From positions 124,001 through 188,000 of the forward strand of contig NZ_JANBBF010000009.1 of NCBI RefSeq assembly GCF_024648885.1: a stretch of DNA of 64,000 nt. The letters run 5' to 3'. The stretch comes from Prauserella salsuginis. Its GTDB lineage: Bacteria > Actinomycetota > Actinomycetes > Mycobacteriales > Pseudonocardiaceae. The translations under genes and the position numbers were made by a program. The notes under the pieces were generated by a model that saw nothing but the letters and a program-made list of their open reading frames with translations, was not told the origin of the DNA and ran no database searches. How positions within the stretch are numbered: position 1 is the first letter of the stretch; every line of letters begins with the position of its first letter. Positions 9,517 through 15,262 of this stretch are shown in pieces.

Positions 9517-11001
9517 ATGGTGCTGCCAGTTCTCGTTCCGATCGCCGCCGGTGCGGGCGGCTACATCGCCGACTCGGTGGCGAACAGCCAGGACGGTCAA
9601 CAGCAGGTCAGCTCGTCCGGCTGCATCGACGCATACCAGATTTACCAAGCCATCACGGGCGGTCCCGGCACTGCCTCGCTGCACGACGGTCGGTCCGCGA
9701 CCGAGGTGCTGCAGAGCCGCTACCAGCAGCGCGTGGCGCAGATCGAGCAGCTCGACAAGAAGATGGACGCCGCCTGGACCGGTGAAGGCGGCTCCAGCGC
9801 CCGGATGGGCGCCGAGCCGCTGAAGGTCTGGATGGAGGATTCCAACGCGAACCTCGCCAAGAGCGGCGCCGTCCTGAACAACCAGTCGAGCGCGTTCGAG
9901 AAGGTCCGCACGACGGTTCAGCCGCTGCCGAACAATCCGCCGGAGAGCGGCTTCTGGAACGACGTGGCCCCGTGGGAGACCGACACGGACCGCGAGATCC
10001 AGCAGTACAACGAGAACGCCAAACGCAATGTCGCGGCGTTCGAGGCGTACAACAGCGAGAGCACGCACAACGCCAATTCGATGCCGCAGTTCAGCGAGAT
10101 GCAGGGCTCGTTCGGAGACGTGTCACTGGCCGAGTCGGGTGTCGCCGAGGGCGGTATCGCCAAGGACTTCATCCACAACGGCGGCGGGTCTGCCGACGGC
10201 AGCGGTGGCAGTGGAGGTGCCGGCGGCTACGGCACCGGAGGCGGCAGCGGTAGCGGCGGTGGTAGCGGCGGTGGTCAATACCCCGGCCCTGGCACGCCCG
10301 GTCCCGGCGCTCCCGGTCCCGGTACGCCCGGTCCCGGCACGCCCGGTCCGGGCAACCCCGGGCCCGGCTACCCGCCCGGCACACCCGGTCCCGGCACTCC
10401 GGGGCCCGGTTACCCGCCGGGGACCCCCGGTCCTGGTGACTCCTGGGATCCGTCGATTCCGGGTCGCCTGCCCGAGGACGACAGCACCAGTTCATCGGGC
10501 TTCGACACGGGCTTTCCCAACGGGCAGTTCGGTGGCCCGTACGCACCCGGCACGCCCGGCCCTGGCGCGAGCAACTTCGGCCCCGGTAGCAGCAACTTCG
10601 GTCCGGGCGGCACCAGCGCTTACGGTCCCGGTGCCGTCGGATTCGGTCCGGGCGGCAGCGGTGCCGGTTCGGGTTACGGCTCGGGTTCCGGTTACGGCTC
10701 GGGTGCAGGCGGCGCGGCCGGTGCAGGCGGCGCCGGTGCGGGCAGCGCGGGCGCGGGCGGCGCGGCCGGCCGTGGCGGTGCGATGGGCATGGGCGGTGGC
10801 GCCATGGGCTCCGGAGCCGGTGCCGCGGGCGCCGCGGGCGCGGCGGGAGGTCGCGGCGGCATGATGCCGATGGGCGCCGGTGGACGTGGCCAGCAAGGTG
10901 ACGACGACGAGGAACACGAGCGCAAGTTCATGATCGACGAGGACGGCAACAAGCTGTTCGGCACCGATCAGAAGACCGCTCCGCCCGTGATCGGCGAATA
11001 G
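9517..11001 (+). CDS. PPE-like protein with collagen-like Pro-Gly region
   Basis: 494 residues; ATG after AAGGGAG. The N-terminal about 180 residues are helical with a WTGEGG turn (W-x-G, about residue 88) and resemble PPE-type ESX substrates. Then a Gly/Ser linker, a block of GPGTPGPG repeats (about residues 257-310), more Gly/Ala-rich sequence, and an acidic C-terminus (EEHERKFMIDEDGNKLFGTD) ending APPVIGE, a tail I recall from PPE-domain proteins of this family. Probably chaperoned by the EspG encoded downstream. Confidence 0.7.
   Translation: MVLPVLVPIAAGAGGYIADSVANSQDGQQQVSSSGCIDAYQIYQAITGGPGTASLHDGRSATEVLQSRYQQRVAQIEQLDKKMDAAWTGEGGSSARMGAEPLKVWMEDSNANLAKSGAVLNNQSSAFEKVRTTVQPLPNNPPESGFWNDVAPWETDTDREIQQYNENAKRNVAAFEAYNSESTHNANSMPQFSEMQGSFGDVSLAESGVAEGGIAKDFIHNGGGSADGSGGSGGAGGYGTGGGSGSGGGSGGGQYPGPGTPGPGAPGPGTPGPGTPGPGNPGPGYPPGTPGPGTPGPGYPPGTPGPGDSWDPSIPGRLPEDDSTSSSGFDTGFPNGQFGGPYAPGTPGPGASNFGPGSSNFGPGGTSAYGPGAVGFGPGGSGAGSGYGSGSGYGSGAGGAAGAGGAGAGSAGAGGAAGRGGAMGMGGGAMGSGAGAAGAAGAAGGRGGMMPMGAGGRGQQGDDDEEHERKFMIDEDGNKLFGTDQKTAPPVIGE
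10285..10435 (+). repeat. Collagen-like GPGxPGPG coding repeat
   Basis: Tandem imperfect units of CCCGGTCCCGGC(AC)G inside the PPE-like gene encode about ten GPGTPGPG/GPGAPGPG/GPGYPPGTP units; prone to length variation. Confidence 0.8.
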
Positions 11002-11046
11002 GACATACCACCCAGACGGGTCGGATATACCATTACGGCTCACCCG

Positions 11047-11086
11047 ATCGGGCCGCTGCCACGTAGCTTCTCGGCAGCGGCCCGAT
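11047..11086 (+). terminator. 14-bp hairpin between the PPE-like and EspG genes
   Basis: ATCGGGCCGCTGCC (11047-11060) is perfectly complementary to 11073-11086 across a 12-nt loop. No T-run; it may end or attenuate the PPE-like transcript before espG. Confidence 0.55.
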
Positions 11087-11180
11087 GTCTGGCCCACCCG
11101 GTTCCACTCGACTCAACCCCTGGCCCGATGCCGCGGCCGGACTCCGGTCCGCGGGCCGTGCACCCCGAAGAGGCAGCGCC

Positions 11181-11966
11181 GTGCTCGAGCACCAGGAGAT
11201 TCTCCGTACCCGCACCCTCGTCCGCCTGCTCCAGCGGACGGGAACCGAACCACACGCGACTCTCGAGAAGGGCGCGACGTGGTACAGCCGCGAGGCGCTG
11301 CAGCAAATCGACGCCGAGATCCATGCCGAGCTCGCGCGCGTCGGCCTGGCGAACGAGAACGGGGTGCACCCGGACCTGCTTGCAACCGTCGAGGCCATCG
11401 GTCACCCCGAGCTGGAGTACTACGGCTGGATCAGCGGCCTGCACGACGGCGCGCCCGTCGACCTGTCCGTGCTGGCGGGCAGCGGCCGCGGTGAGGCGTT
11501 CACGCTGGTCAACAACGAGGCCGCCGGAGTGGTGGTACTGGCCAGCGTCCCGGCGCGGGAGCTGGTGGACGCGTTCCTGCTGCAGTTGCCACAGCAATCG
11601 CCCGCGAACGCGCACGCACTCTCGGTGCCGAAGGCCAAGGTGGAGGGCCGGAAGGGCGAGTCGCTGAGCGAGGACTCGCTGATGCGGTCCGAGGTGCCGG
11701 ACGCGGCCCAGCGGGAGCTGAACGAGTTCAAGCGCATCATGGGGCTCGAACGCACCGGTGGTGGGCAGTTGTACGTGGCGGCACGGAACCGGTCCGGACA
11801 ACGCCAGCGCGCGGAGAAGCCGATCACCTACCTCGACACCGCCGAGGGCCGTTGGCTGATCGAGGAGACCCCGGGCACGGGTGAGCCGATGCTCGCCGCC
11901 GCGCCCGCGACGCCGGAGCTGCTGCGATCGCGCCTGCGTGAGGCGCAGCGCACGCTGGCCGACTGA
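11181..11966 (+). CDS. ESX secretion-associated protein EspG
   Basis: 261 residues from GTG 11181 (GAAGAGGC upstream). Family features: an N-terminal helical segment, the ISGLHDG and FTLVNNEAAGVVVLA strands, the LMRSEVPDAAQRELNEFKRIM helix and a C-terminal YLDTAEGRWLIEE strand. EspG proteins are cytosolic chaperones that bind PE-PPE pairs for type VII export, fitting the three genes upstream. The length is usual for the family. Confidence 0.85.
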   Translation: MLEHQEILRTRTLVRLLQRTGTEPHATLEKGATWYSREALQQIDAEIHAELARVGLANENGVHPDLLATVEAIGHPELEYYGWISGLHDGAPVDLSVLAGSGRGEAFTLVNNEAAGVVVLASVPARELVDAFLLQLPQQSPANAHALSVPKAKVEGRKGESLSEDSLMRSEVPDAAQRELNEFKRIMGLERTGGGQLYVAARNRSGQRQRAEKPITYLDTAEGRWLIEETPGTGEPMLAAAPATPELLRSRLREAQRTLAD

Positions 11967-12468: not shown

Positions 12469-12670
12469 TGTCCAGGCGTACGCAGGCCCGGCCGGGCGGT
12501 GGCCGTGCCCGCCGGACACCCCGCACGAGGGCACCCGGCACCGTGGAGACTCGAACGGCGCACACGGCCGATCGACAGCCACGGCAACCACGACCACCGA
12601 GACAGCCACGAGAGCCACGACATCCACAACAGCGGATGCTCGAACGACGACGAAGGAGGTGCGCGAACCG

Positions 12671-15262
12671 GTGGCGATCACCGACGACCGCGGTCCCACG
12701 ACGAGCGGCGGCGAGCACGGCACGTTCGACCGCCAGCCGCCCCAGGACGTCGCCGCGGAGCAGTCCGTGCTCGGCGGCATGCTGCTGTCGAAGGATGCGA
12801 TCGCCGACGTCGTCGAGGTGCTGCGGCCCGGCGACTTCTACCGGCCCGCGCACCAGGCGGTGTACGACTGCATCCTCGACCTGTACGGCCGCGGTGAACC
12901 CGCCGACCCGATCACGGTGTCGGCGGAGCTGGAGCGCCGCAGTGAGCTGAGCCGGGTCGGCGGAGCGCCGTACCTGCACACGCTCATCGCGACCGTGCCC
13001 ACGGCCGCGAACGCCGGGTACTACGCACAGATCGTCGCGGAGAAGGCGGTCCTGCGACGGCTCGTCGAGGCGGGCACGCGGATCGTGCAGTACGGCTACG
13101 GTGCCGACAACAGCGGCGGCGACGGTAACGACATCAACGAGGTGGTCGACCGCGCCCAGGCCGCGATCTACGAGGTCACCGAGCGCCGCACCAGCGAGGA
13201 CTACGTCGCGCTTGAGGAACTGCTCCAGCCGACGATGGACGAGATCGACGCCATCGCCTCCCGCGGCGGTGACGCGCAGGGCATTCCCACCGGCTTCACC
13301 GACCTCGACGACGTGACGAACGGGCTGCACCCCGGTCAGATGGTCATCGTCGCGGCCCGGCCGGGTGTGGGTAAGGCGCTCGCGCTCGACACGCAGCTGG
13401 CCACTCCGTCCGGGTGGACCACGATGGGCGAGGTGCAACCGGGTGACCAGCTGATCGGCTCGGATGGGCGGCCCACGACCGTCGTGGCCGCGACCGACGT
13501 CATGCACGGCCGCCCGTGCTACGAGGTGGAGTTCTCCGACGGAACCGTGATCGTCGCGGACGCCGAGCACCAGTGGCTGACCGACACGCGCGCATCCCGG
13601 CGGGGAAACGCCCGCGCCGAGGTCCGCACCACCGAGCAGCTCGCCGCCACGGTCCGGTGTGGCACCGCCGACAGCCGCGTCAACCACTCCGTACAGCTCG
13701 CGCAGCCGCTGGATCTTCCCGAACGCGTCCTCCCACTGCACCCCTACGCGCTCGGTGCCTGGCTCGGCGACGGCCACGCCGCAGCCGCCCGGTTCACCAC
13801 CGCCGACCCGGAGATCATCACCTACCTCGAAGCCGAGGCAGGGCTGTTCGTCCCCAGGACCGGCAAGTACGCGTACACGTTGCGCTTCCCGGAACCCGAA
13901 CCGACGGAATTCCGGTCCTGCGTCGTCTGTGGCGCGGCGTTCCTACCGCGGACCAGTGAGGTCAGGACCTGCGGCCAGTCGTGCGGTGGAAAGGCGCGCT
14001 TCGTCTCCGAACCCGTTCCGGCCCCCTCGTGTCCCGACTGCGGGAAGCCGTCCTCGGGTTTCCGACTGTGTCAGGAATGCCGCGATCACCACGGGACCGT
14101 GCAAGCGGTGTTGCGGACTCTCGGCGTGCTGGGCGACAAGCACATTCCGGTCGACTACCTCCGCGCTTCGGAGGAACAACGACGAGCGCTGCTGGCGGGG
14201 CTCCTCGACACCGACGGCACCGTGACGGCCTCGGGCGGTGTCCAGTTCTCCGTCACCGACGAACGTCTCGCGGACGGCGTGTACGAGTTGGTCGTCGGCC
14301 TCGGCTACCGGTGTTCCCGGACCACCAAGCAGGTGCGTGGACGAACCGGAGCGACGTCGGTGGCGCACACGCTCACGTTCACGACCCATGACCGCGTTTT
14401 CTGGTTGCAGCGCAAACACCTGGTGCACAAGGAACGGCTCACCGGGCGCAGCCCGCGGCCGACCCCGCGGTACGTCGTGGAGGTCCGCCCCGTGACCAGC
14501 GTGCCCGTGCGGTGCGTCGAGGTCAGCGCGGGGGACCACCTGTATCTCGCCGGACGCTCCATGGTCCCGACACACAATTCGACCCTGGGCCTGGACTTCG
14601 CCAGGTCGTGCTCGATCAAACACGGCATGACCAGCGCGATCTTCTCGCTGGAGATGAGCCGCACCGAGATCGTCATGCGCATGCTGTCAGCCGAAGCACG
14701 CATCCGACTGGCCGACATGCGCGGTGGCCGCATGTCCGACGACGACTGGACGCGGCTGGCGCGGCGCATGAGCGAGATCAGCGAGGCGCCGCTGTTCGTG
14801 GACGACTCGCCGAACCTGACGATGATGGAGATCCGCGCGAAGGCCCGCCGCCTCAAGCAGCGCAACGACCTGCAGCTCGTCGTCGTCGACTACATGCAGC
14901 TGATGACGTCGGGCAAGCGCGTCGAATCGCGGCAGCAGGAGGTGTCGGAGTTCTCTCGGCAGCTGAAGCTGCTGGCGAAGGAACTCGAAGTGCCGGTCGT
15001 GGCGATCAGCCAGCTGAACCGTGGCCCGGAACAGCGGACCGACAAGCGTCCGATGCTGTCGGACCTGCGTGAATCCGGTTCGCTGGAACAGGACGCCGAC
15101 ATCGTCATGCTGATCCACCGGCCGGACGCCTTCGAGCAGGACGACCCACGCGCGGGGGAGGCGGACCTGATCCTGGCCAAGCACCGTGCCGGTCCGACGA
15201 GCACGATCGCCGTCGCCCACCAGCTGCACTACAGCCGCTTCGCCGACCTCGCCCAGCAGTAG
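12671..15262 (+). CDS. dnaB: Replicative DNA helicase DnaB, interrupted by an intein
   Basis: 863 residues as translated, about 462 after splicing. GTG at 12671 is chosen because AAGGAGG ends 11 nt before it; GTG 12659 lies inside that site. N-terminal primase-interacting domain (PQDVAAEQSVLGGMLLSKDA), then the RecA-like motor: Walker A ARPGVGK/STLG is split by the intein, followed by SLEMSRTEI, VVDYMQLM (Walker B), SRQLKLLAKELEVPVVAISQ and DLRESGSLEQDADIV. Hexameric helicase at the fork; splicing is essential for function. Alone behind its own regulatory region. Confidence 0.96.
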   Translation: MAITDDRGPTTSGGEHGTFDRQPPQDVAAEQSVLGGMLLSKDAIADVVEVLRPGDFYRPAHQAVYDCILDLYGRGEPADPITVSAELERRSELSRVGGAPYLHTLIATVPTAANAGYYAQIVAEKAVLRRLVEAGTRIVQYGYGADNSGGDGNDINEVVDRAQAAIYEVTERRTSEDYVALEELLQPTMDEIDAIASRGGDAQGIPTGFTDLDDVTNGLHPGQMVIVAARPGVGKALALDTQLATPSGWTTMGEVQPGDQLIGSDGRPTTVVAATDVMHGRPCYEVEFSDGTVIVADAEHQWLTDTRASRRGNARAEVRTTEQLAATVRCGTADSRVNHSVQLAQPLDLPERVLPLHPYALGAWLGDGHAAAARFTTADPEIITYLEAEAGLFVPRTGKYAYTLRFPEPEPTEFRSCVVCGAAFLPRTSEVRTCGQSCGGKARFVSEPVPAPSCPDCGKPSSGFRLCQECRDHHGTVQAVLRTLGVLGDKHIPVDYLRASEEQRRALLAGLLDTDGTVTASGGVQFSVTDERLADGVYELVVGLGYRCSRTTKQVRGRTGATSVAHTLTFTTHDRVFWLQRKHLVHKERLTGRSPRPTPRYVVEVRPVTSVPVRCVEVSAGDHLYLAGRSMVPTHNSTLGLDFARSCSIKHGMTSAIFSLEMSRTEIVMRMLSAEARIRLADMRGGRMSDDDWTRLARRMSEISEAPLFVDDSPNLTMMEIRAKARRLKQRNDLQLVVVDYMQLMTSGKRVESRQQEVSEFSRQLKLLAKELEVPVVAISQLNRGPEQRTDKRPMLSDLRESGSLEQDADIVMLIHRPDAFEQDDPRAGEADLILAKHRAGPTSTIAVAHQLHYSRFADLAQQ
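13376..14578 (+). other. Class 3 intein with LAGLIDADG endonuclease and zinc modules
   Basis: 401 codons inserted in the P-loop (GVGK^ALALDTQL ... VPTHN^STLG, the DnaB-b site). The first residue is Ala, not Cys/Ser/Thr, and the class 3 W-C-T set is present: Trp in AEHQW (block B), Cys in VPVRCVEV (block F), Thr in VPTHN (block G). LAGLIDADG motifs are LGAWLGDGH (about 13751) and LLAGLLDTDG (about 14189). Between them, 13919-14092 encodes cysteine pairs CVVC...CGQSC and CPDC...CQEC, two zinc-ribbon-like modules. Ser+1 is the first extein residue. Confidence 0.93.

Follow-up and report, generated by a model that had tools for sequence, protein, structure and literature searches.

The window analysed here, a stretch of 64,000 nucleotides from Prauserella salsuginis (contig NZ_JANBBF010000009.1, positions 124,001 to 188,000), carries on its forward strand, downstream of ssb and rplI, an open reading frame of 867 amino acids (12659..15262, GTG start as listed) for the chromosomal replicative helicase DnaB, recognised by TIGR00665 (519.5 bits against a cut-off of 385.25) and by the DnaB and DnaB_C Pfam domains. 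The gene holds one intein, an open 1203-base insert of 401 residues (13376..14578, forward strand) that begins with the GCG codon of Ala1 at 13376, directly after GVGK, and ends with the AAT codon of Asn401 at 14576-14578, directly before the Ser-Thr of STLGLD. These are exactly the bounds given by an earlier annotation made from the nucleotides only (hereafter the sequence-only reading); its residues 236-636 denote the same intein, which occupies residues 240-640 in our frame, the difference reflecting the choice of start only. As had been noted there, the insertion falls between Lys and Ser of the P-loop (GVGK^ST), the position of DnaB-b inteins. The intein is present in five of the seven Prauserella genomes searched, the window's own included, and the other two congeners (G255 and G257) possess an uninterrupted P-loop, GVGKSTLGLD, at the exact insertion point; the closest named relatives of the intein are found in three Prauserella species (80-89% identity).

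The splicing domain is of class 3, which is defined by a Trp/Cys/Thr residue set (PMC5050341). In agreement with the sequence-only reading, we found Ala1 in place of a nucleophile, Trp67, Cys380, Thr399-His400-Asn401 and a Ser at position +1. The N-terminal splicing region (residues 1-72, 13376..13591) comprises Ala1, Cys48 (13517-13519) and Trp67 (13574-13576), and the C-terminal one (residues 366-401, 14471..14578) comprises the block F Cys380 (14513-14515), Tyr390 and the final Thr-His-Asn. Both regions align with the mycobacterial DnaB inteins, a comparison that the earlier annotation had proposed, and among solved structures the nearest in sequence are two class 3 inteins of DnaB, 6rix (MchDnaB-1, E 1e-39) and 6bs8 (M. 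smegmatis, E 5.5e-39); the predicted model of the Prauserella protein superimposes on 6bs8 with a root-mean-square deviation of 1.1 A over 125 aligned residues, of which 64% are identical. A search of the organism's own genome with the Pfam model Intein_splicing (PF14890) gave no match, hence that model misses this intein.

Between the splicing regions lies a LAGLIDADG homing endonuclease, also recognised previously, with two motifs bearing acidic residues and a two-repeat fold matching that of PI-SceI. The first motif, LGAWLGDG (residues 126-133, 13751..13774), contains Asp132; the second, LLAGLLDTDG (residues 272-281, 14189..14218), contains Asp280 and lies within a Pfam LAGLIDADG_3 match (residues 267-318, 30.6 bits against a cut-off of 22.5). 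By analogy with PI-SceI, the yeast VMA intein, we take D132, K255, D280 and K347 to be the four candidate catalytic positions. PI-SceI itself is a class 1 intein, unlike the class 3 intein studied here, and is not known to have two Cys4 modules between its motifs. In the Prauserella enzyme, eight of the 12 cysteines of the intein (182, 185, 199, 203, 219, 222, 232 and 235) are located between the two motifs, where they form module 1, C182-x2-C-x13-C-x3-C203 (13919..13984), and module 2, C219-x2-C-x9-C-x2-C235 (14030..14080). Three of the four pairs are of the CxxC type, and CGQSC is CxxxC. According to the sequence and to the secondary structure of the model, the modules follow the strands of the first LAGLIDADG repeat and precede the helix leading to 'LGDKHIP'. 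The central observation of the sequence-only reading, two modules with eight cysteines altogether inside the LAGLIDADG endonuclease of a class 3 P-loop intein, is therefore confirmed; its further remark that the cysteine pairs stand beside the block F cysteine has to be withdrawn, as the nearest of them, C235, precedes C380 by 145 residues in sequence.

At least four CxxC/CxxxC pairs within 60 residues occurred in 7 of 20,000 shuffles of this intein, and cysteine conservation is a stronger test than shuffling for a real cluster. We compared 162 inteins at the DnaB P-loop site, 150 of them distinct. Among the 198 loci collected, L001-L030 are the 30 best matches and L139-L198 were picked by hand down the same match list; four loci incomplete at one end (L079, L102, L117 and L171) were dropped, L194 is empty, and inteins whose flanks are not those of DnaB were excluded (the first 125 loci include 26 distinct ones). 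Since the loci on genome contigs were found by six peptide patterns, of which one matches within module 2 and another immediately ahead of the modules, module-bearing inteins are over-represented among them, and an even draw of 394 genomes over the class gives a less biased view than this set. Of the 150 distinct inteins, 89 have both modules, 47 have neither, and 14 have one or part. In the group with both, each of the eight cysteines is conserved in 87-89 of 89 relatives, and the spacing C2C13C3C15C2C9C2C is identical to the window's in 66 of the 85 rows with all eight cysteines readable; across the 54 remaining columns of the modules, the commonest residue has a mean frequency of 0.65 (8 of the 54 also reach 0.95). 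A longer form of the DnaB intein (L071, L076, L078, L081-L084, L153 and L154; 498-519 amino acids) was also observed, with about 100 extra residues, which lie near residue 80 in the cases with a split match.

The splicing residues A1, W67, C380, Y390, T399, H400 and N401 are found in all 150 inteins and C48 in 148 (exceptions L050 and L095), irrespective of the modules. All four candidate catalytic positions, by comparison, are kept in 86 of the 89 inteins with both modules and in 25 of the 61 lacking one or both (Fisher p 6e-15, kinship ignored). On a tree built without the module and catalytic columns, a quick build with long branches meeting on which gain and loss are indistinguishable, we counted 32 changes of module state, at least 20 of them on well-supported branches; because remnants such as that in L162 occur and the deletions end at different places, we read these changes as probable losses. 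Twenty independent pairs from the tree gave on average 7.1 in which the catalytic state changed in the same direction, 0.5 in the opposite one and 12.3 without difference (median p 0.039, range 0.002-0.45), a test that is fairer but weaker than the Fisher test. Moreover, in 18 disjoint close pairs, the last of which (L027, L041) spans different families, the ratio of nonsynonymous to synonymous substitution rates (dN/dS) was 0.194 for the module; the core of the endonuclease gave 0.166-0.216, and the splicing regions 0.141-0.154. Judged by these ratios, purifying selection acts on the module much as it does on the core. These pairs supersede an earlier dN/dS run on distant, saturated pairs, and two runs on module-lost sequences, made mostly of unrelated pairs, are not relied on. 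Given the endonuclease-linked presence of the module and the fixed splicing residues, the module is maintained with the endonuclease, the splicing residues being kept with or without it. In the relatives L155 and L156 (from G366 and G367), a long Glu/Ala/Pro/Ser-rich stretch fills the place of the modules, and only one of the four catalytic positions is unaltered.

The recognisable sequence relatives of the modules belong to HNH endonucleases. Among 44 module sequences, 40 matched PHROG 1333 (unknown function), 21 PHROG 1271 (HNH endonuclease) and 4 PHROG 171 (NinG/Rap); the window's own module matched PHROG 1333 only, with no match to PHROG 1271 at the limit used. A module profile gave eight matches in 60 related genomes, seven in DnaB inteins and one in an HNH endonuclease of a same-family genome (L215, 267 amino acids), in which modules of both kinds precede the HNH domain and to which BLASTP gave a match of 48% across 27 residues at E 1e-4. 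Among viral contigs, scanning yielded one confirmed locus (L217), encoding an HNH endonuclease of 209 amino acids that shares the 'TCGRSCG' stretch. In the phage gene at this locus, a class-1-like intein frame (707-1681, 325 amino acids) is overlapped in its middle, out of frame, by the HNH open reading frame (982-1611), an out-of-frame homing endonuclease with Cys modules inside an intein that recalls the ShiLan insertion described in passages of PMC11855218. The modules discussed here resemble the Cys modules of HNH endonucleases (PHROG 1271, NinG/Rap of PHROG 171 and, as far as excerpts of PMC11855218 describe it, the ShiLan insertion) but reside in an enzyme of another nuclease fold, that of the LAGLIDADG family. 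The Pfam double zinc ribbon DZR_2 remained below its cut-off of 27 bits (16.4 for the intein, 21.6 for the insert alone), and a search of PDB sequences with the module profile gave weak matches only, the strongest at E 0.002 and most of them to ribosomal L32 or to proteins with zinc fingers. The module alone as a protein query against phages produced two chance-level matches (E 0.3 and 0.9), and a structure search with the module folded alone, which was uninformative, gave no significant match to any solved fold.

Taken together, these results make it likely that the element is a full-length class 3 DnaB-b intein whose PI-SceI-type LAGLIDADG enzyme bears two HNH-like Cys4 modules serving homing rather than splicing. 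Its splicing domain would excise via the block F Cys380 route, DnaB becoming functional only after splicing, while the LAGLIDADG enzyme would cut intein-free dnaB at the P-loop codons, whereupon the intein would be copied in. Each Cys4 module most likely holds one metal ion, presumably zinc, and both together would make extra contacts to the homing site. Such DNA-target contacts, one of the roles suggested in the sequence-only reading, seem to us the likeliest function of the modules because their loss is linked to the endonuclease, they are under purifying selection and they resemble modules of HNH endonucleases. Two counts weigh against a strict need for the module: the 25 of 61 inteins without both modules that retain all four catalytic positions and, among 38 module-lacking groups on the tree, the 18 in which these positions are kept in every row, as compared with 17 in which they are kept in none. 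This means that the nuclease is able to function in the absence of the module or that losing the module comes early in decay. We also considered whether losses lie mainly at the tips of the tree; single-row groups make up 26 of the 38 module-lacking and 27 of the 47 module-bearing groups, and this pattern carries no weight.

A purely structural role, in which the modules act as zinc clips that stabilise the endonuclease fold and do not contact DNA, would fit the purifying selection, which matches that of the core, and the confidence of the module blocks, which is 81-92 (predicted local distance difference test) within the full model and falls to 74.6 when the module is folded alone. However, 17 of the 47 relatives with neither module keep the LAGLIDADG core with its four catalytic positions, in sequence the modules have their recognisable kin among those of HNH endonucleases, and passages of PMC3943268 describe added regions of phage HNH and GIY-YIG homing enzymes, zinc fingers included, that contact the DNA target; we therefore regard the clip as possible, though unlikely. 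That the cysteines are a decaying remnant or a chance cluster without metal binding could be argued from the 61 of 150 relatives missing one or both modules, yet it is hardly compatible with the near-complete conservation of each cysteine where both modules occur and the spacing common to 66 of 85 readable rows, nor with the dN/dS of the module, and it appears extremely improbable.

The sequence-only reading had also suggested that the modules might render splicing sensitive to zinc or redox state. On such a view, oxidation or metal loss in the modules would alter the splicing domain and so time helicase activity. The modules do reside in the same polypeptide, and the mycobacterial group of this intein is redox- and zinc-sensitive (PMC6195587, PMC7360933). 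As reported in parts of these papers, M. smegmatis DnaBi1 forms a Cys48-Cys118 disulfide under oxidant and binds zinc at Cys118, Val119 and Tyr128, but excerpts of PMC6195587 describe this sensor as a mini-intein without endonuclease. The sensor residues correspond to C48, C380, V381 and Y390 of the Prauserella intein, kept in 148, 150, 142 and 150 of the 150 inteins, with or without modules; the tree shows 20 or more shifts in module state but no change in any splicing residue tested, and the modules co-occur with the catalytic positions of the endonuclease. Hence, we consider control of splicing by the modules very unlikely, and since the sensor residues, with Cys48 and Cys118 in the splicing domain, have their counterparts here, any redox or zinc control of splicing is to be sought at these first. 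In this regard, Cys48, which one passage of PMC6195587 terms non-conserved, is close to invariant in the present set of DnaB P-loop inteins. One may further imagine that zinc acts oppositely on the two halves of the intein, licensing the endonuclease through the modules, while excess zinc or oxidant blocks C380 and holds back the helicase, so that spread would be coupled to the zinc and redox state of the host and the sensor mini-inteins of mycobacteria would descend from such an element, having kept the sensor and shed the endonuclease with its zinc; we rate this scenario as very unlikely.

Module-bearing DnaB P-loop inteins span many actinobacterial families. The even draw contained 117 genomes with an intein match, not all of which need be in DnaB, and 48 with a module match, a patchy distribution; 47 of these 48 module places fall inside an intein match, the exception being G532, with a stop codon within. 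Outside inteins, the module was seen at this G532 place, in L215 and in the viral HNH protein of L217. Among the 37 pairs listed, of up to 70 closest, inteins were more alike than exteins in 8 (best L061/L063 and L003/L089 of those listed) and the reverse held in the rest; strong selection on the exteins makes this comparison a weak one, and we do not claim frequent recent transfer. Two class 3 inteins at a non-DnaB GK^S site (L093 and L104) carry a different Cys cluster (CACGCG...) at residues of about 100-160, past block B but ahead of the first LAGLIDADG motif. In the window itself, an ESX-type pair, a PPE-like gene and an EspG-family gene, is located between rplI and dnaB (9517-11966).

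Each ingredient is already known: class 3 inteins in the DnaB P-loop, intein-borne endonucleases of the LAGLIDADG family, and HNH homing endonucleases that contain zinc fingers. The DnaBi1 inteins of Mycobacterium smegmatis, M. leprae and M. chimaera (DnaB-b; 6bs8, 6own and 6rix) share the P-loop site (PMC6195587) and the splicing class with the Prauserella intein but, as described in passages of PMC6195587 and PMC5050341, have no endonuclease, whereas in the latter the LAGLIDADG endonuclease is complete and bears two Cys modules; endonuclease-bearing DnaB-b kin include one intein, L048, from a genome bin that bears the label Mycobacterium sp. Phage class 3 inteins, in terminases and other proteins, have the class 3 splicing domain in common with it, and mycobacteriophage TerL1-c/e have been grouped with DnaB-b in part of PMC5050341. 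The phage matches (40 listed of 736 records) were mostly terminase genes, at 31-45% identity, and one DnaB-like helicase. None of 23 distinct viral-contig inteins had the eight-Cys module pair; L111 has a single Cys4 module at the same place. A mycobacteriophage LAGLIDADG protein, whose C-terminal ~50 residues resemble HNH proteins according to an excerpt of PMC3706429, is a partial precedent. In the open-licence PMC literature we found no description of a LAGLIDADG enzyme with an inserted HNH-like Cys4 pair, although an earlier mention may exist.

Passages of PMC3943268 draw a contrast between LAGLIDADG enzymes, which are compact, and the HNH and GIY-YIG enzymes of phages, which reach long sites by tethered modules. 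The endonuclease of the Prauserella intein combines the compact LAGLIDADG strategy with the modular one usually credited to HNH and GIY-YIG enzymes. A modular LAGLIDADG enzyme is a possible scaffold for longer-site meganucleases, and the many independent changes in module presence constitute a natural experiment on the contribution of the module to homing. Finally, the DnaB-b intein, known as a mycobacterial redox sensor and described in the passages cited above as endonuclease-free, has endonuclease-bearing kin.
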